Virus record (IMG/VR): IMGVR_UViG_3300027842_000057
Location: 1 to 34,132 of that record
Origin: a virus
Reading direction: 5' to 3' (one strand)
Length of the DNA stretch: 34,132 nucleotides
Shown: positions 12,490 to 27,641 of the stretch, piece after piece
How positions within the stretch are numbered: position 1 is the stretch's first letter
How the letters are laid out: every line of letters begins with the position of its first letter
Program-made: the position numbers and the translations under genes
Notes under the pieces: generated by a model
What the model saw: the letters and a program-made list of their open reading frames with translations, nothing else
Told to the model about the DNA's origin: nothing
Databases searched by the model: none

Positions 12490-13350
12490 ATGGACCTTCT
12501 GGAGAAATACCGCATTCCGTTGTTTGACGCAGAGACCGGGACGGGCACGGCGCCGCCGTCCGCGCCGCCTGCGGCTGTAGTCGCCGCGGCCGAACCGCCG
12601 CCCGTCGAGCCGAGTCCCGCGCCGCCAGCCCCGGAGTTGCCCGCTGGCGTCCATAAGACGCCTCCCTCGTCATTGCTCGTCAATGAATTGACGGGCCTGC
12701 GGGCAGAGCGGCGCCGACAGGATGAGGAAATTGCCCGCTTGCGGCGCGAGGCGGCCGAAGCGCGGGCGCTCGCCGAGCGGGCCACCGCTGGCACCAACAA
12801 TCAACCGCCCGCCCCCGCCGCGCCGCGCATCGAGCCGCCAGCAACCGCGGAAGCCGAGATTGACCGCCGCGCCGAATACAAGCTATTCCTGCGGGATGTC
12901 GAAGGTGTCCGCGAACGTGGCAACCGGCAGTTCGGGCCGGCCTTCAATGAAACAGTTCGCGCTCTAGCCGCGGTCGGCGCCGACAACGATCAATTCGTCT
13001 CGCAAGTGATGGCAGCCGATCCTGCCAATGCTCATGTCGTCCTCAATGCGCTCGCGCAAGACCTCGAAGGCACGGTCGCGCTCGTCAATATGGACCCTAA
13101 CCGCCGCATGGCAGAACTCACGAGGCGGGCAATGGCCGCAAGTGCAAGTGTGACTGATCCCGCCAAGACCGCGCCTCCGGCCGCGCCTCCCGTCCCTCCA
13201 AAGACCATCAGCAAGGCGCCGCCGCCGCCGCCGCCCGTTATCGCCAGCACGACCAAGACCGTCGATTGGCGCTCGGATGAGGCGAGCGATGCCGAGTTCG
13301 ATCGAGGGTTCAATGAGGAATTCTTGCGACGGCGGGCGTTGCGACGATGA
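12490..13350 (+). CDS. Putative scaffolding protein
   Basis: The call rests on position between portal and coat, as for P22 gp8, and on composition. The 286 residues have a proline/alanine-rich disordered N-terminus (about 18-60), a charged coiled coil (about 62-98, AERRRQDEEIARLRREAAEA), a second disordered segment, a helical centre (RAEYKLFLRDVEGVRERGNR) and a short charged C-terminal helix rich in arginine (NEEFLRRRALRR). P22 scaffold binds coat through a basic C-terminal helix-turn-helix, which fits. The length is close to P22 gp8 (303). It is strongly biased in composition, so similarity searches may miss it. Confidence 0.65.
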   Translation: MDLLEKYRIPLFDAETGTGTAPPSAPPAAVVAAAEPPPVEPSPAPPAPELPAGVHKTPPSSLLVNELTGLRAERRRQDEEIARLRREAAEARALAERATAGTNNQPPAPAAPRIEPPATAEAEIDRRAEYKLFLRDVEGVRERGNRQFGPAFNETVRALAAVGADNDQFVSQVMAADPANAHVVLNALAQDLEGTVALVNMDPNRRMAELTRRAMAASASVTDPAKTAPPAAPPVPPKTISKAPPPPPPVIASTTKTVDWRSDEASDAEFDRGFNEEFLRRRALRR

Positions 13351-13628
13351 TGACCGATCAACAAGAAAAAGATGAAGCTTATCGGCAACGCAATCATCTG
13401 GTTGCCGCTTTAGCCCGGTTGTTTCCAAGCGGAATCGCCCGCACGAATATACCGGGATGGTCCTCAGATTGGCATGGTTGTTGTTTTATCGACTTGCCAA
13501 CAGGGCAGATCAGTTATCATTATCACGACAGCCAAGCATTTCTTTTCGCCGATCTGCCCCCTTATCAAAAAGAGTGGGATGGTCACGACAAAGAAACGGT
13601 TCACCGGCGTTTAGCTGCATTAAGATAA
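13347..13628 (+). CDS. Conserved-looking hypothetical protein (93 aa)
   Basis: The ATG overlaps the scaffold stop (ATGA). The N-terminal helix is followed by a beta region with WHGCCFIDLPTGQISYHYHD, then AFLFADLPPYQKEWDGHDKE. This histidine- and aspartate-rich pattern recurs in small phage proteins that I remember only as unnamed. The YHYHD and WDGHD clusters could bind metal. Function unknown. It separates scaffold and coat genes and is followed by the structured leader RNA of the coat gene. Confidence 0.6.
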   Translation: MMTDQQEKDEAYRQRNHLVAALARLFPSGIARTNIPGWSSDWHGCCFIDLPTGQISYHYHDSQAFLFADLPPYQKEWDGHDKETVHRRLAALR

Positions 13629-13661
13629 GACGTGACGAGCCGTAGCAGAGTTCGGCGCTGC

Positions 13662-13717
13662 CGCCACCTGAGCGTTATCAGGGTTTGCCGGCCTTCTCCG
13701 TCTCGGCAACGGAGTGC
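13662..13717 (+). repeat. Tandem RNA motif, copy 1
   Basis: It opens with CGCCACCTGAGCGTTATCAG and shares with copy 2 the core CGCCACCTG-GCGT-ATCAGGGTTT-CCG-CCTT. The 3' part forms the hairpin CTCCGT (13696-13701) with ACGGAG (13709-13714), loop CTCGGCA. The stem sequence differs from copy 2, while its position in the motif is identical. Confidence 0.7.
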
Positions 13718-13732
13718 TTGGGAACGTCGCCT

Positions 13733-13789
13733 CGCCACCTGGGCGTCATCAGGGTTTCCCGCCCTTGTCTGATTCGGGACCAGACATGC
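13733..13789 (+). repeat. Tandem RNA motif, copy 2
   Basis: It starts 71 bases after copy 1. The hairpin GTCTG (13767-13771) with CAGAC (13781-13785) begins 34 bases into the motif and ends 52 bases in, exactly as in copy 1. Two stem pairs are changed on both sides (C-G to G-C, C-G to T-A), which points to a conserved RNA structure. In this copy GGGCG and CGCCC can also pair. Confidence 0.7.
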
Positions 13790-13792
13790 ACC

Positions 13793-13810
13793 GCGATCAT
13801 TCGTGATCGC
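13793..13810 (+). other. Seven-pair hairpin with TTCG tetraloop
   Basis: GCGATCA (13793-13799) and TGATCGC (13804-13810) pair perfectly around TTCG. UUCG loops are exceptionally stable in RNA. No T run follows. It sits 54 bases before the coat start and may protect the message or pause transcription. Confidence 0.65.
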
Positions 13811-13863
13811 TCTCAAACCATGCGCCTTGGAGATGGCGCGTAAATCCTCCAGGAGCCATCCCG

Positions 13864-15123
13864 ATGGCAAACAATATTCTGACGCCGAGCATGATCACTC
13901 GGTATGCGATCCGTATGTTTCTGAACACCAACTATTTCCTGCAGAACATCTCACGGCAGTTCGAAAGTCAGTTCGGCATCGAGGGTGCGCGCATTGGCGC
14001 TCAATTGCGCGTCCGCTACCCCAACCAGTACACGGTCACGGACGGGCCGGGCATCTCAGTGCAGGACACGACCGAGCAGCAATTCCTGCTTACGGTCGCG
14101 ACGCAGCGCCATGTCGATGTGGCATTCACATCAGCGGAAACGACGCTCGATATCGACGACTATATGGAGCGCATCGTGTTGCCGCGCGTCAATGCGCTCG
14201 CCGGCAATGTCGCCTACCAGGTCATGGTGAACACTGCGAACTCGGTGCGCAACATCGTCGCCAACGTCGACGCCAACAATAACATCTTGCCCCTTACTGA
14301 TACGCCAGTCGCGCTCGCCCGCGCGATCCTCGAAGAAAATTCGGCGCCCAATTTCGGCGAGATGGGCATTCGCAAGGTGGCTCTGGCGCCACGGAGCGAC
14401 GCCCGCATGCAGCAGGCCTTGCGCGGCCTGCTGAACCCGGTCGAGGACATCTCGTCTCAATACAAGACCGGCATGATGTATCAGGCGTTTGGTCTGCGCT
14501 TCTTCGAAGATCAGACCGTCGTCAACCATACGACCGGATCATTGGCGACCGCGACCGTCAATGGCGCCAACCAGACCGGGCAAACCATTACGGTCAACGC
14601 CCTCGGCGGCACCATCAATGCGGGCGATGTGCTCACGATTGCCGGCGTCAATGCTGTCAACCGCAACACCTATCAGAGCCTCGGCACGGTTGCGCAGTTT
14701 GTTGCAACGGCCGCCGCCGCGGTGGGGGCGACCTCGATATCGATTTTCCCGCCGATCGTGCCGCCGGCCTCGGCTGTTCCTTACGCGGGCCTGCCCTACA
14801 CGCCACAGCAATATATGACAGTAACGGCGTCGCCCGCCAATAACGCGGTCATCACGCCGTTTGCCAACGCGAGCGTCACCTATCGAGAAAATCTCTGTTA
14901 CGCGCCCGATGGGATCACGCTCGTTGTCGCGCCGCTGTGGATCCCGCCCAACGAGAAGGGAGTCATTGCGGCAGCGCGGCACAACTATGATACCCTGTCG
15001 ATGCGCTCGCTCGTCTGCTATGAGCCGACGACGGATCAACCGATCGACCGCTTGGATATCCTGTTCGGTTCGGGTGTGCCCAGACCGGAATGGATCGTGC
15101 AGGTCGCGGACGCGACGCCATAA
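13864..15123 (+). CDS. Major capsid protein (P22 coat-like, HK97 fold)
   Basis: This 419-residue protein agrees with P22 gp5 (430) in length and layout. It has a helical N-terminal arm with ILTPSMITRYAIRMFLNTNY, then the strand region RVRYPNQYTVTDG. The spine helix is near DYMERIVLPRVNALAGNVAY. An inserted beta domain (about 225-330) contains NAGDVLTIAGVNAVNR and a threonine-rich stretch, like the I-domain that stabilises P22 coat. The end is RPEWIVQVADATP. It forms the icosahedral shell. The start has GGAG eleven bases upstream and a long structured leader, and the gene is followed by small virion genes. Confidence 0.85.
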   Translation: MANNILTPSMITRYAIRMFLNTNYFLQNISRQFESQFGIEGARIGAQLRVRYPNQYTVTDGPGISVQDTTEQQFLLTVATQRHVDVAFTSAETTLDIDDYMERIVLPRVNALAGNVAYQVMVNTANSVRNIVANVDANNNILPLTDTPVALARAILEENSAPNFGEMGIRKVALAPRSDARMQQALRGLLNPVEDISSQYKTGMMYQAFGLRFFEDQTVVNHTTGSLATATVNGANQTGQTITVNALGGTINAGDVLTIAGVNAVNRNTYQSLGTVAQFVATAAAAVGATSISIFPPIVPPASAVPYAGLPYTPQQYMTVTASPANNAVITPFANASVTYRENLCYAPDGITLVVAPLWIPPNEKGVIAAARHNYDTLSMRSLVCYEPTTDQPIDRLDILFGSGVPRPEWIVQVADATP

Positions 15124-17412: not shown

Positions 17413-18174
17413 ATGCCCCCGCCCGCCGAACCTGTCCTCCCGATCGACACCTGTGCGGCGCTTCTAGCGAACATGCTGGTCGATGCCGGCATTGTCGGCA
17501 TTGATGAGGATATCGAACAGCCAGTGCTTAACCGGGCATTCACGCAGATCAACTGGTTGCTGGCCGAATGGGCGCGCAGGCGCTGGCTCTGCTATCGGCT
17601 GCAAGATTATGCGGTGCTCTCGACCGGCGCACAGAGCTATACCGTCGGCCTCAAGCAGAATATCGACATCAATCCGCGACCGGATCGGATCGAGTTCGCT
17701 TATCTGCGCTTTGTGAATCAATCGGCTGGAACGCTTCCGGTCGATATTCCGCTCGACATTATCCAGAGCCAGGAGGATTATTCGCGGATTACCGTGAAGA
17801 CAGTCGGAACGCTGCCCTGGCGGGTGTTCTATGATCCGGTATGGCCGGTTGGCTTGCTCAAGCCGTGGCCGGTGCCGCAGGCCAACATTTATGAGGTGCA
17901 TGTCGGCTTCAAGGTCGTGCTGCCGCGGTTTTCCTCGCTCAATCAACCCATCACGTTTCCGCCGGAATACGAGGCGGCGCTGAACTGGTGCGGTGCACGG
18001 CGATTGCGGGAAAGCTATCAGCTCGAGCCGCGGCCGGTGCTTGATTCGCTCGCCCGGCAATCGCTCAATGCGATGCGGCTCGCGAATCAGGCGATGCCGA
18101 CGTTGCGAATGCCGGCATTTCTGCGCAATCGCCAACGCGCATACGATTACCGAGGGGATTCGGACGGGTTCTGA
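17413..18174 (+). CDS. Head-to-tail adaptor, P22 gp4-like tail accessory factor
   Basis: This 253-residue protein follows the plan of P22-type tail accessory proteins. A helical N-terminus (CAALLANMLVDAGIVGIDED) and AFTQINWLLAEWARRRWLCY lead into a beta region with TGAQSYTVG, DIPLDIIQSQEDYSRITVKT and WRVFYDPVWPVGLLKPWPVP. C-terminal helices follow. Such proteins plug into the portal ring after packaging. Its position just before the gp10-like gene matches P22. P22 gp4 is shorter (166) and also acts as a muramidase; I see no matching active site here. The last 45 bases region is duplicated at 18343-18387. Confidence 0.65.
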   Translation: MPPPAEPVLPIDTCAALLANMLVDAGIVGIDEDIEQPVLNRAFTQINWLLAEWARRRWLCYRLQDYAVLSTGAQSYTVGLKQNIDINPRPDRIEFAYLRFVNQSAGTLPVDIPLDIIQSQEDYSRITVKTVGTLPWRVFYDPVWPVGLLKPWPVPQANIYEVHVGFKVVLPRFSSLNQPITFPPEYEAALNWCGARRLRESYQLEPRPVLDSLARQSLNAMRLANQAMPTLRMPAFLRNRQRAYDYRGDSDGF

Positions 18175-18189
18175 ACAACGGAGATAACC
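18145..18189 (+). repeat. 45-bp direct repeat, copy 1 (end of the gp4-like gene)
   Basis: This copy spans the last codons and stop of the gp4-like gene plus the following ribosome site (GGAG). It recurs 198 bases later at 18343-18387 with a single difference (T18185 against C18383). Confidence 0.9.
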
Positions 18190-18190
18190 G

Positions 18191-18391
18191 ATGCCTGTGA
18201 CGCATTATCCGCGGCCGGGACTCACGACATTGTCGCTGCCACCCGTGCAAGGCATGGGGCGGTATCTCTATGCTGCCTCGAATGGCGCGCTCTATGCCGT
18301 CGTCGCCAATAATATCTATTACATCAATTCCGATTTCGTGTGGATTACCGAGGGGATTCGGACGGGTTCTGAACAACGGAGACAACCATGA
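18191..18391 (+). pseudogene. Fragment of a gp10-like gene (duplication remnant)
   Basis: The first 153 bases (18191-18343) match 18961-19113 inside the gp10-like gene with about eight differences, encoding the same MPVTHYPRPGLTTLS and YAASNGALYAVVANNIYYIN. The fragment lacks the first 38 residues and everything after the DFVW segment. It then runs out of frame through the second copy of the gp4 gene end, giving a 66-residue frame with a good ribosome site. It may be translated but is probably a recombination scar, not a working protein. Confidence 0.7.
18343..18387 (+). repeat. 45-bp direct repeat, copy 2
   Basis: This is the second copy of the gp4-gene end. It now follows the gp10-like fragment and supplies the GGAG ribosome site for the gene at 18388. 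With copy 1 it brackets the gp10-like fragment. Confidence 0.9.
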
Positions 18392-18846: not shown

Positions 18847-20349
18847 ATGGTCGCGCTGCCGCTCACCTCGGGGGCGTATAGTTCGCAGTCTTTGATCGCG
18901 GATGCGCAGCGCTCGATCAATCTGTACCCTGAGAAAAATCCCGAGAATACCCGGCCGCCGATGCCGGTCACCCATTATCCGCGGCCGGGACTCACGACAT
19001 TGTCGGCGCCACCCGTGCAAGGCATGGGGCGGTGTCTCTATGCTGCCTCGAATGGCGCGCTCTATGCCGTCGTTGCCAATAATATCTATTACATCAATTC
19101 CGATTTTGTGTGGACGCTGCTCGGTGTGCTTCAGACGCCAGGCAATACACCGGTCATTATGGCCGACAATGGCACGACGATTCTTGCAGTTGATGGCGAC
19201 CAGACTGCCGACCTGATTACGCTCGGGACGAATGCCTTTGCCTTTAACGGCGATCCCAATTTCCTTGGCGCTCGTGGTGTCGATTTTATCGATGGTTTTC
19301 TGGTAATGGATGTTGCCGGAACGAATAAATGGCAATCGACGCTCGCGGAATCGGTTACATTCAATCTGTTATATCAGGGCGTTAAAACTGCCTCACCCGA
19401 TCCGATTCAGCGCGTAATCTGTTGCGAGCGTCAGGTCTATCTTCTCGGGACTCGTAAAAGCGAGCCCTGGGTCAATGTCGGCGCCGTCCCGTTTCCGTTC
19501 AATATTCAGCCCGGCATGATCATCGAGCAAGGTTGCGCCGCGCCCTATTCGGCCTGCAAACAAGATACCAACGTCTATTGGCTCTCGCAGTCGCCGGAAG
19601 GTGCGCGGATGATCATGAAGGTGAATGCTCAAAATGTCGCAGAGCGCATCTCGACACACGCCATCGAAACCGAGTTTCTGAAATATCTACGCGTCGATGA
19701 TTGTTTGTCTGATACCTATCAGATATCGGGGCATAGTTTCATCCGTTTTCACTTTCCGTCCGCCGATAAAACCTGGGTTTATGATCAGGCAACCGGCCAG
19801 TGGTTCGAGGACAATTGGATCGATAACAATGGCGTGCTCCATCGTGCCCGCAATGCGTTCTCGGCCTATGCCTATGGGCTCAATCTCGGGCTCGATTGGG
19901 CAAATGGCGCGCTCTATCAGATCGACCAGCAGGCATTCACCGATGCTGGCCAGCCGATTGTGCACATTCGATCATTTCCGCACATCATCAATGAGTTGAA
20001 ATACGTCAACTATATGGGATTTGTCGCTGATTTCGAAACCGGAACGCTTGCCGGAAGCGATGAAACAACAAAGACCGTGAGCCCATGGTCGCCAGGATTC
20101 AGCAGCGGCTTTGGTCCACTGACAGTGGTCGATACGCCAACCCTGAATCTGCGTTATTCAAACGATGGCGGCTACACTTGGTCAAATAACCGACCTAAAA
20201 AAATGATGAGCGCCGGTCGCTATCGATCAATGATGCGGTGGCGCGGATTAGGCAAAGCGCGCGATCGAGTCTATGAACTCGGCTGGTCGGCGCCGATGAA
20301 GACGGCTCTCCAGGGTGCCTATTATGATGCGCAGCCGGGGGCTTCATGA
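18847..20349 (+). CDS. Packaged DNA stabilisation protein, P22 gp10-like tail hub
   Basis: This 500-residue protein fits P22 gp10 (472) in length and signature. The N-terminus has SGAYSSQSLIADAQRSINLY then PEKNPEN and YPRPGLTTL, a pattern typical of the family. A beta-propeller-like body follows (NGALYAVVANNIYYINSDF, GFLVMDVAGTNKWQST, RQVYLLGTRKSEPW, KTWVYDQATGQWFEDNW). In P22 it forms the hexameric hub beneath gp4 that closes the head and holds the tail needle and tailspikes. It begins right after the previous stop and overlaps the next gene by ATGA. Part of it is duplicated at 18191-18343. Confidence 0.8.
   Translation: MVALPLTSGAYSSQSLIADAQRSINLYPEKNPENTRPPMPVTHYPRPGLTTLSAPPVQGMGRCLYAASNGALYAVVANNIYYINSDFVWTLLGVLQTPGNTPVIMADNGTTILAVDGDQTADLITLGTNAFAFNGDPNFLGARGVDFIDGFLVMDVAGTNKWQSTLAESVTFNLLYQGVKTASPDPIQRVICCERQVYLLGTRKSEPWVNVGAVPFPFNIQPGMIIEQGCAAPYSACKQDTNVYWLSQSPEGARMIMKVNAQNVAERISTHAIETEFLKYLRVDDCLSDTYQISGHSFIRFHFPSADKTWVYDQATGQWFEDNWIDNNGVLHRARNAFSAYAYGLNLGLDWANGALYQIDQQAFTDAGQPIVHIRSFPHIINELKYVNYMGFVADFETGTLAGSDETTKTVSPWSPGFSSGFGPLTVVDTPTLNLRYSNDGGYTWSNNRPKKMMSAGRYRSMMRWRGLGKARDRVYELGWSAPMKTALQGAYYDAQPGAS
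18961..19113 (+). repeat. Source-like copy of the 153-bp gp10 segment
   Basis: This segment inside the intact gp10-like gene is about 95% identical to 18191-18343. The eight or so differences include one amino-acid change S-A-P against S-L-P and C against Y, so the two copies have diverged or came from related phages. Confidence 0.85.
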
Positions 20350-25654: not shown

Positions 25655-26407
25655 ATGCGCACCGTCTACATCATCCGCCACGGCCAGACATTGCTCAACA
25701 AGCAGGACAAGATCAGGTCATGGCTGAACATCCCGCTCGATGAGCAGGGCTTTAGCGAGGCGCGCAAGCTTGGTTGGGAACTCAATCGACAGGGAGTCCA
25801 GATCGATGGCCTGTTCTCCTCCGATCTCCTGCGCTCTGAGCAGACCACGATCGAGGTCGCCAAGATGGCGGGCTTCCAGATTCTTGGGACCACCATCGGA
25901 TTGCGTCCTTGGAACGTCGGCAGCCTGTCGGGCACCGATGGGCCTACCGCCCACAAAGTCATGATGGAGCACGCCCGAAATGATCCCGATAAAGTGATCG
26001 GCGGGGATGGCGAATCGTTCAACATCTTCAAATATCGCGTCCTGACTTGCGTCATCGGCTTGCTCAATTCCCATCCGGGGAAGGTGCTCGGGCTTGTCTC
26101 GCATAGCCGCGGCGAGCGGATCATTCATGCCTGGGCAGCTGGCGGCTCCTGTGAATCGCTCGGGATTGATCTCGACGTATTCGGCGAGCGTGGCGAGGCC
26201 ACGGCGAGCGCATCGCGGGTCGAGATCAAATGTTCGCTGGTCGTGGGGGGCGACGACGGGCCTTCGACTGCGAATAACGATCAGGAACAGCCGCCCATGG
26301 CCGGTGCCCGCAAGAGTGCGCTCGATGGTCAATGGTATGTGAACGATCAGTCCCGTCCAGGCAAGTATCTCCGTGTAAGGCGAGGCCAAGGCCGTGCCGC
26401 CGCCTGA
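25655..26407 (+). CDS. Histidine phosphatase (phosphoglycerate mutase-like) with C-terminal virion-type tail
   Basis: The fold and active site are clear: RHG at 8-10 (YIIRHGQTLLN), R60 in SSDLLRSEQT, RPWNVGSLSG (84-93), GESF (119-122) and the second catalytic histidine H150 in GLVSHSRGER. The enzyme would use a phospho-histidine intermediate; the substrate is unknown. After the domain (about 200) comes a linker and a short segment DGQWYVNDQSRPGKYLRVRR. Its DG-x-Y-x-x-P-x-x-P-G-K-Y pattern recalls short repeats in other phage virion proteins. The ribosome site is AAGGCG. It lies between gp20-like and ART-like genes, so it may be carried in the virion. Confidence 0.85.
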   Translation: MRTVYIIRHGQTLLNKQDKIRSWLNIPLDEQGFSEARKLGWELNRQGVQIDGLFSSDLLRSEQTTIEVAKMAGFQILGTTIGLRPWNVGSLSGTDGPTAHKVMMEHARNDPDKVIGGDGESFNIFKYRVLTCVIGLLNSHPGKVLGLVSHSRGERIIHAWAAGGSCESLGIDLDVFGERGEATASASRVEIKCSLVVGGDDGPSTANNDQEQPPMAGARKSALDGQWYVNDQSRPGKYLRVRRGQGRAAA

Positions 26408-27641
26408 CGATCTCTCCCTTGAGCCGGTGGATCATGATCCGTTCCCTGGCCAGCCATCGCCATCTGACGTGCAATCGATGACGCATCAAGCCATAGGGCC
26501 TAATCCGGCAAAGCCGATCCTCGATGCCCTGCGGGCCTTCATGACGGGAGGTCTGCAAGGCATGGCCAATGTTCAAGGCATGAACACGCCGGAATGGTCG
26601 CAACGGCTGGGTTCGATCTTGACAAGCCCGGAGGCGAATGCGGCGCTGGGGGTCATGTCGCCAGTCGGCACCAAAGGCATCACCGCCTTCCATGGCTCCC
26701 CCCATGATTTTGACGCCTTCGACATCTCCCAGATCGGAACGGGAGAAGGCGCACAAGCTTATGGGCATGGGCTGTATTTCGCGGAGAATGAGGGCGTGGC
26801 GCAAAGTTATAGGAGTAAGTTGTCCGACAACAGTTTTCGAATACAGTCACCTGATGGTGATAGTTTTGGTCACAAAGAATTGGCAGACGCTGTGCGCATG
26901 GAAACCAATCCAGAGCTAGCTGATGATGCCCGCGAAGGATGGGATTGGGCATTTCGCAATTTTGCTGAACAGAACGGTAAATTTAATACTCATCCTGGAA
27001 AAAGTGCCGAATTCCACCAAGGTTATGACTCTGCAAAGGGTCTTCTTCAGGAGCATGGATTTGCGCCGGTTGAGCCCGGCCGCATGTACCAAGTCTCCAT
27101 TAACGCCGATCCCGAGCATTTCCTGGATTGGGACAAGCCATTGAGCGAGCAGAGTCCGAAGGTGCAGGAGGCGTTGCGTCCGGTCATAAATCAACTTGAA
27201 CCTGGAGCCGGAGAGGGAAATTTGCCGAAAAGCGTTTCTGGTGATTCGTGGTTGCAATTCGCTGAAAACAAGCTTGGACGAGAAGGTGTGTCTAAATCAT
27301 TGAAAGAAGCCGGCATCCCCGGCATCAAGTATCTGGATCAAGGATCACGGAACGTTGGCTTAACCTTTGAGGTTGCCAGCAATCCAAACGGCAGCTTTGA
27401 TTTGATAAAACATCGCCTCGGTACGGAGAATGTCATAGGAAATTATGAGACGCGCGAAGCTGCAAACGCTGCTCGTGACGCGCAGATTCCACAAGAAACC
27501 CACAACTACGTCGTCTTCGATGACAAGCTTATCGACATCATGAAGAAATATGGCATCGCGGGAATAGGCGCCCTTCCCGCAATGGGCGCCTATCATTTCC
27601 AGACCGATTCCGTTGATCACGATCCCTTCTCAGGTCAATGA
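26394..27641 (+). CDS. ADP-ribosyltransferase-like protein (ART-PolyVal type)
   Basis: The start is GTG 26394, overlapping the phosphatase by 14 bases. From about residue 96 the sequence follows the ADP-ribosyltransferase domain known from phage polyvalent proteins: ITAFHGSPHDFDAFD (H100), then YGHGLYFAENEGVAQSYR (Y128), a long insert, GIPGIKYLDQGSRN (307-320) and HNYVVFDDKLIDIM (370-383). The first two match the H and Y positions of the H-Y-E type. The insert (about 142-260) is AT-richer than its surroundings. Both ends carry VDHDPF-x-GQ (12-20 and the last nine residues). It might modify host proteins on entry; target unknown. Confidence 0.7.
   Translation: MPPPDDLSLEPVDHDPFPGQPSPSDVQSMTHQAIGPNPAKPILDALRAFMTGGLQGMANVQGMNTPEWSQRLGSILTSPEANAALGVMSPVGTKGITAFHGSPHDFDAFDISQIGTGEGAQAYGHGLYFAENEGVAQSYRSKLSDNSFRIQSPDGDSFGHKELADAVRMETNPELADDAREGWDWAFRNFAEQNGKFNTHPGKSAEFHQGYDSAKGLLQEHGFAPVEPGRMYQVSINADPEHFLDWDKPLSEQSPKVQEALRPVINQLEPGAGEGNLPKSVSGDSWLQFAENKLGREGVSKSLKEAGIPGIKYLDQGSRNVGLTFEVASNPNGSFDLIKHRLGTENVIGNYETREAANAARDAQIPQETHNYVVFDDKLIDIMKKYGIAGIGALPAMGAYHFQTDSVDHDPFSGQ

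Follow-up and report, generated by a model that had tools for sequence, protein, structure and literature searches.

In MS2-type RNA phages the coat operator is a hairpin that contains the start codon and acts as a translational control point, and in HK022 the put RNAs, hairpins that lie close to where early operons begin, act on RNA polymerase. How tailed dsDNA phages control the ratio of coat, scaffold and portal is only partly understood. In phage T4, a pseudoknot sits 67 nt upstream of the start codon of gene 32, and a 2010 review remarked that this is perhaps the sole viral pseudoknot with a known role in translational autoregulation (PMC3014915). Here we analysed positions 1–34,132 of IMG/VR virus record IMGVR_UViG_3300027842_000057 (34,132 nt; hereafter, the window), from an uncultivated P22-like phage, in which the leader of a P22-type coat gene contains two tandem pseudoknots.

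The window carries, in this order, a terminase gene (phrog_2), a P22-type portal gene, a probable scaffold gene, a small WDGH-domain ORF, the leader and the P22-type coat gene. The features of this region are:

12490..13350, plus strand: probable scaffold gene, named from its position between portal and coat by P22 gene order; no family match
13347-13628: WDGH-domain ORF, between the probable scaffold gene and the leader
13639..13661, plus strand: module A, GCCG-ta-GCAG-agtt-CGGC-g-CTGC, two overlapping helices (a pseudoknot or two alternative hairpins)
13667..13682, plus strand: copy 1 hairpin B, CCTG-AGCGTTAT-CAGG, with a stem that covaries in near relatives
13685-13690 with 13704-13709, plus strand: copy 1 pseudoknot C, stem S1, TTGCCG/CGGCAA (unit spans 13685..13714)
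13696-13700 with 13710-13714, plus strand: copy 1 pseudoknot C, stem S2, CTCCG/CGGAG (unit score 54.3 bits with covariance model R1)
13738..13753, plus strand: copy 2 hairpin B, CCTG-GGCGTCAT-CAGG
13757-13761 with 13775-13779, plus strand: copy 2 pseudoknot C, stem S1, TCCCG/CGGGA (unit spans 13757..13785)
13767-13771 with 13781-13785, plus strand: copy 2 pseudoknot C, stem S2, GTCTG/CAGAC (unit score 72.1 bits with covariance model R1)
13793..13810, plus strand: hairpin D, GCGATCA-TTCG-TGATCGC
13822..13839, plus strand: hairpin E, GCGCC-TTGGAGAT-GGCGC, kept in most near relatives
13851..13855, plus strand: AGGAG, ribosome-binding sequence of the coat gene, 8 nt 5' of the coat ATG
13855..13868, plus strand: hairpin F, GCCAT-CCCG-ATGGC, predicted to close over the coat start codon
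13864..15123, plus strand: coat (major capsid) gene, P22 type (PF11651, E 2e-28; phrog_283 major head protein)

No terminator-like site was found within 13300-13950 and the promoter-like sites around the leader were weak only, so the leader is most likely part of the coat mRNA. Elsewhere the window encodes an HNH protein (PF01844, 826-1278), a DNA methylase (PF01555, 20768-21502), a histidine phosphatase family protein (PF00300, 25655-26407) and, at 26394-27641, a weak ADP-ribosyltransferase-like match below the cut-off (PF18760). The ORF at 18847-20349 has near its start a 157-nt stretch (18958-19114) that recurs at 18188-18344 with 95% identity. Two direct repeats of 45 nt (98%), at 18145 and 18343, flank this second occurrence; the region (18145-18387) is a partial gene duplication or insertion.

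The original prediction described two tandem copies of an RNA motif before the coat gene, each with one hairpin at the same offset. The copies lie where it placed them, at 13662-13714 and 13733-13785 (52 nt, 79% identity without gaps, 71 nt apart), as do their 19-nt hairpins, with the stems it quoted, at 13696-13714 and 13767-13785. Their shared 5' half has two matches in the window at up to 3 mismatches against 0.01 expected, and none elsewhere in the window. The description of one hairpin per copy was nevertheless incomplete. The loop of the hairpin in each copy is the complement of a short strand slightly 5' of the stem, so that the hairpin is half of a pseudoknot (C, stems S1 and S2), and the conserved 5' half contains a hairpin of its own (B, CCTG-AGCGTTAT-CAGG). 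The letters of S1 and S2 differ between the copies with pairing kept, S1, the helix formed by the loop, being UUGCCG:CGGCAA in copy 1 and UCCCG:CGGGA in copy 2, with changes as compensatory as those of the hairpin stem. Two non-overlapping pseudoknots of this strength occurred in none of 1000 dinucleotide shuffles of 13629-13800, while one alone occurred in 2 to 18 of 1000. The minimum free energy of the whole leader showed no extra stability over shuffled sequence (z -0.05), and folding energy is therefore not counted as evidence.

Loops L1, L2 and L3 measure 4-9, 1-4 and 0-1 nt, respectively. A classic coaxial knot does not fit these lengths because an L3 of 0-1 nt is too short to bridge stem 1; according to a rough geometry check with an ideal A-form helix, a kissing-like, 3'-stacked knot in which S1' and S2' would stack as one strand fits. 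When 5-bp stems were fixed and the loops left free, an excess over shuffles appeared at L1 of 3-8 and L3 of 0-3, a spread that partly reflects register slip. Module A, which adjoins copy 1 upstream and is found with altered stems in about ten near relatives, may be bistable, as its loop lengths hinder both helices from forming together.

The compensatory changes between the copies had been taken as direct evidence of RNA structure; the covariation is real, but two copies alone are weak evidence and its strength comes from the relatives. Coat homologues were collected from viral contigs, mostly 77-93% identical, and many of their leaders had the same units. Segmentation by hand of 28 loci and both window copies, in which a few rows were mismatched and several of these came from hand-cut segments of unequal length, yielded B stems CCUG/CAGG, CUUG/CAAG, CAUG/CAUG, CGCG/CGCG, CCGG/CCGG and CGUG/CACG and, among the S2 stems, GUCCG, GUCUG, GUCAG, GCUUC, CUCGA, GUUCGA, CCUGA and CCUAG, all with complementary partner strands. 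Seventeen near-relative sequences, not a random sample since they were picked for carrying hairpin B, were aligned with MAFFT on sequence alone; on this alignment the structure was 94.5% paired, with double changes in 10 of 14 pairs (31 double-change cells). None of 500 shuffles reached any of these measures and the signal was lost on sliding the partners; the statistical test thus bore out the proposed covariation, the stems being preserved through replacement in relatives. S1 is nearly invariant in the near clade, altered in window copy 1 and in one relative (L018, CCCA/UGGG); hairpin B of this clade has a conserved loop, AGCGUUAU. Two units are also present in six other loci (L002, L017, L021, L026, L028 and L031); in the five of these that were segmented, the first unit likewise forms a knot, a weaker one in L026 and L031. 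The leaders of L005, L011 and L016 have in common another conserved paired element, GCTCGGATATCTCCGAAGCTCC, 3' of the pseudoknot.

Downstream of the tandem units, the window and 15 relatives have at the same place a hairpin D whose stems vary in sequence yet pair fully (the L017 entry was mis-segmented), while the stem of hairpin E is nearly invariant, so that little can be read from its covariation. Hairpin F is limited to the near clade and, being mostly invariant, has a pairing that is predicted rather than proven. In the window the pairing probability of the coat start codon is 0.89, and values above 0.7 are found in 48% of near relatives versus 14-18% elsewhere. In L004 and L029 the hairpin F pairing is shifted yet kept (CCCA:UGGG), with the second codon changed. 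The hairpin F loop UCCCG (13855-13868) could also pair with S1' CGGGA (13775-13779), and its 5' strand GCCAUC with GAUGGC of hairpin E (13834-13839). Judged from complementarity, which seems kept in the divergent L030 and L031 and in L004, L025 and L029, these alternative pairings could possibly constitute a switch.

Broader coat searches gave 343 usable loci, 206 of them with distinct upstream regions. The gap between scaffold and coat is bimodal, with 56 non-redundant loci below 60 nt and 131 at 100-420 nt. We searched positions -130 to -40 of the coat start for the mechanical pattern S1-L1-S2-L2-S1'-L3-S2', a match being strong at a score of at least 22. Among the 131 long-gap loci, which like the others are related rather than independent, are mostly metagenomic fragments and were counted without account of the tree, 50% had a strong knot, compared with 5.5% for shuffled versions of them and 15% when the opposite strand was searched; at score 25 the corresponding values were 30.5%, 1.0% and 1.5%. 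About half of the long-gap loci gave no strong match to the search pattern. The 56 short-gap loci were not above chance (1.8% versus 3.1% in shuffles). Far-clade stems include GCUCG/CGAGC with GUCUG/CAGAC, GCCCG/CGGGC with UGACGG/CCGUCG, and GCCC/GGGC with GUCUC/GAGAC. Across loci, U(C/U)AA or UAAA is frequent in loop 1 and a lone A in loop 3, and there are almost no invariant unpaired columns across clades. In an alignment of 36 loci (A6), S1 was 95% paired, through several kinds of base pair, and S2 only 62%, in part owing to misregister; its rows were picked for pairing, so the mechanical pattern search is the fairer test.

The position of the knot is set relative to the coat gene. In the near clade it begins ~104 nt 5' of the coat start (IQR 101-107) and in two far clades at medians of 83 and 100 nt, whereas its distance to the preceding gene is more variable. 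In four relatives (L005, L016, L024 and L027) an HNH endonuclease gene, following a scaffold-sized ORF, lies directly 5' of the leader, in the place where the window has the WDGH ORF. The tight coat spacing, the varying upstream distance and the foreign genes 5' of the leader together indicate that the leader travels with the coat gene.

Searches with covariance model R1, built from hairpin B and S2, across whole phage records of up to 62 kb recovered both window copies and coat leaders only, marginal scores apart; the search suggested with the original prediction has thus shown that many further copies exist; homologous leaders stand before the P22-type coat gene of dozens of IMG/VR phages. 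A second copy in record G014 (18.2 bits) was not accepted. An exact-pattern scan of viral contigs for the shared 5' half gave no match because the near relatives are too variable, and a pattern scan for pseudoknot C returned eight known loci together with L059/L066, an unrelated phage in which S2 does not form and whose match we judged to be chance. As expected from the original prediction, which recognised no known family, the window and 19 related loci had no Rfam 15 match at gathering scores; a hit of PhotoRC-I RNA (RF01716) to 17 nt of copy 2 (12.3 bits where the gathering score is 45; E = 1) is chance. Isolate phages contained no similar DNA. No such knot was found in the 140-nt gap of Acetobacter phage phiAX1, an isolate and coat relative, and PAE2 and P22 have almost no gap before the coat gene, the scaffold and coat ends of P22 overlapping. 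The sole cellular record with both coat and leader is a 58-kb contig, probably phage, in a Beijerinckiaceae MAG (L049, JARLIW010000323.1), which is a weak hint at the host group; among 248 genomes of that family only this contig has the leader, other matches being weak and without a coat gene nearby. The part of the literature that was covered held no report of this element. With no Rfam family, no similar isolate-phage DNA and no paper found in the literature covered, we rate the leader as a new RNA family within a known kind of element, the structured phage leader RNAs, and its knot as unusual.

Comparison of relatives gives good support to the conserved RNA pairing, to the strand on which it lies and to its constant association with the coat gene. 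An element acting in cis on coat expression, as originally proposed, is most likely from these comparisons because of the tight coat-start spacing and the foreign genes between the scaffold gene and the leader; compensatory structure and a consistent position before one gene mark it as a structured cis-regulatory leader RNA, with a putative effect on expression. Our leading interpretation, held with about even confidence, is that the leader sets coat translation through a docked phage protein, most likely unassembled coat. The leader would set how often ribosomes start on coat, and the pseudoknot units would be the docking site, with scaffold as the second candidate ligand. Protein in excess would bind the units and the start region would be held closed, so that coat supply would track assembly demand, of which free coat would be a natural sensor; the logic would be that of T4 gp32 and its leader pseudoknot. 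A protein-bound operator is favoured because the stems change freely whereas certain loop letters persist within a clade, and also because some lineages have tandem units and the near-clade start codon tends to be closed. More tentatively, and with less than even confidence, the leaders could form a large, old family of pseudoknots in phages with P22-type coats that senses free coat or scaffold and throttles coat translation. If so, capsid assembly would feed back on capsid synthesis through RNA, by a knot topology unlike the classic one, with one clade having tandem units and a switchable start-codon hairpin.

The same position and structure data would be shared by a leader that boosts coat expression, or protects it, with no phage repressor involved, as a nuclease shield of a processed 5' end or a strong independent ribosome entry that makes coat exceed scaffold. 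The bimodal gap is in keeping with this, since a short gap, as in P22 itself with its overlapping scaffold and coat ends, could allow translational coupling of coat to scaffold, and the long gap has the leader. However, a near-clade start codon that tends to be closed matches repression better than enhancement, and no processing site was identified, so that we regard this explanation as rather unlikely, though the most serious competitor. For a riboswitch, in which the pseudoknot would bind a small molecule and gate coat translation, the resemblance of compact and sometimes tandem pseudoknots before a start codon to some aptamers could be cited, along with the conserved near-clade B loop. That loop is kept in the near clade only, however, and almost no unpaired letters are kept across clades, unlike a typical aptamer core; the element also occurs only before a phage coat gene rather than metabolic genes and matches no Rfam riboswitch, which leaves this reading quite improbable.

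Two functions that the original prediction had listed are not supported at this locus. A put-like or other antitermination element that lets polymerase read through the late operon would account for tandem structured RNA inside a phage operon, but the HK022 put sites lie near early promoters, and here the element sits within the head-gene operon directly 5' of coat, with spacing that follows the coat start and not a promoter, and no terminator-like site in 13300-13950; we consider it improbable. A signal for DNA packaging, or a separate RNA acting in trans like the packaging RNAs that some phages encode, would suit the location among head genes. Against it stand the strand-specific pairing geometry (50% versus 15%), the fixed coat-start spacing, the short-gap relatives that do without the element, and the lack of a terminator or convincing promoter of its own, and we hold it to be very improbable.

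The phages concerned are known almost solely from metagenomes, and a covarying RNA so widespread at the start of coat provides a handle on the control of head-protein ratios; the leader could also be used to mark this phage group and as a part for controlling expression. Compared with the described systems, it is like the HK022 put RNAs in being a structured, cis-acting and tandem-like phage RNA, but it is pseudoknotted, lies mid-operon among head genes and not in an early operon, and is tied to the coat start. It shares with the MS2 type a hairpin at the start codon and coat as a putative ligand, but belongs to a dsDNA tailed phage with an HK97-fold coat, precedes the coat's own gene and has a pseudoknot as its main element. 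As in T4 gene 32, a leader pseudoknot precedes the gene of an abundantly needed phage structural or binding protein, at 67 nt there and about 75-105 nt here (PMC3014915). The gene and phage group are different, however, the units here are in tandem, and the classic H-type knot of the T4 type, with a short L1 and an L3 spanning stem 1, contrasts with an L3 of 0-1 and an L1 of 4-9 nt. Given this difference in geometry and with no homology known, the leader is not a member of the T4 gene 32 family; it could instead be the second viral pseudoknot in translational autoregulation after that of T4 gene 32, and one that serves a capsid gene.
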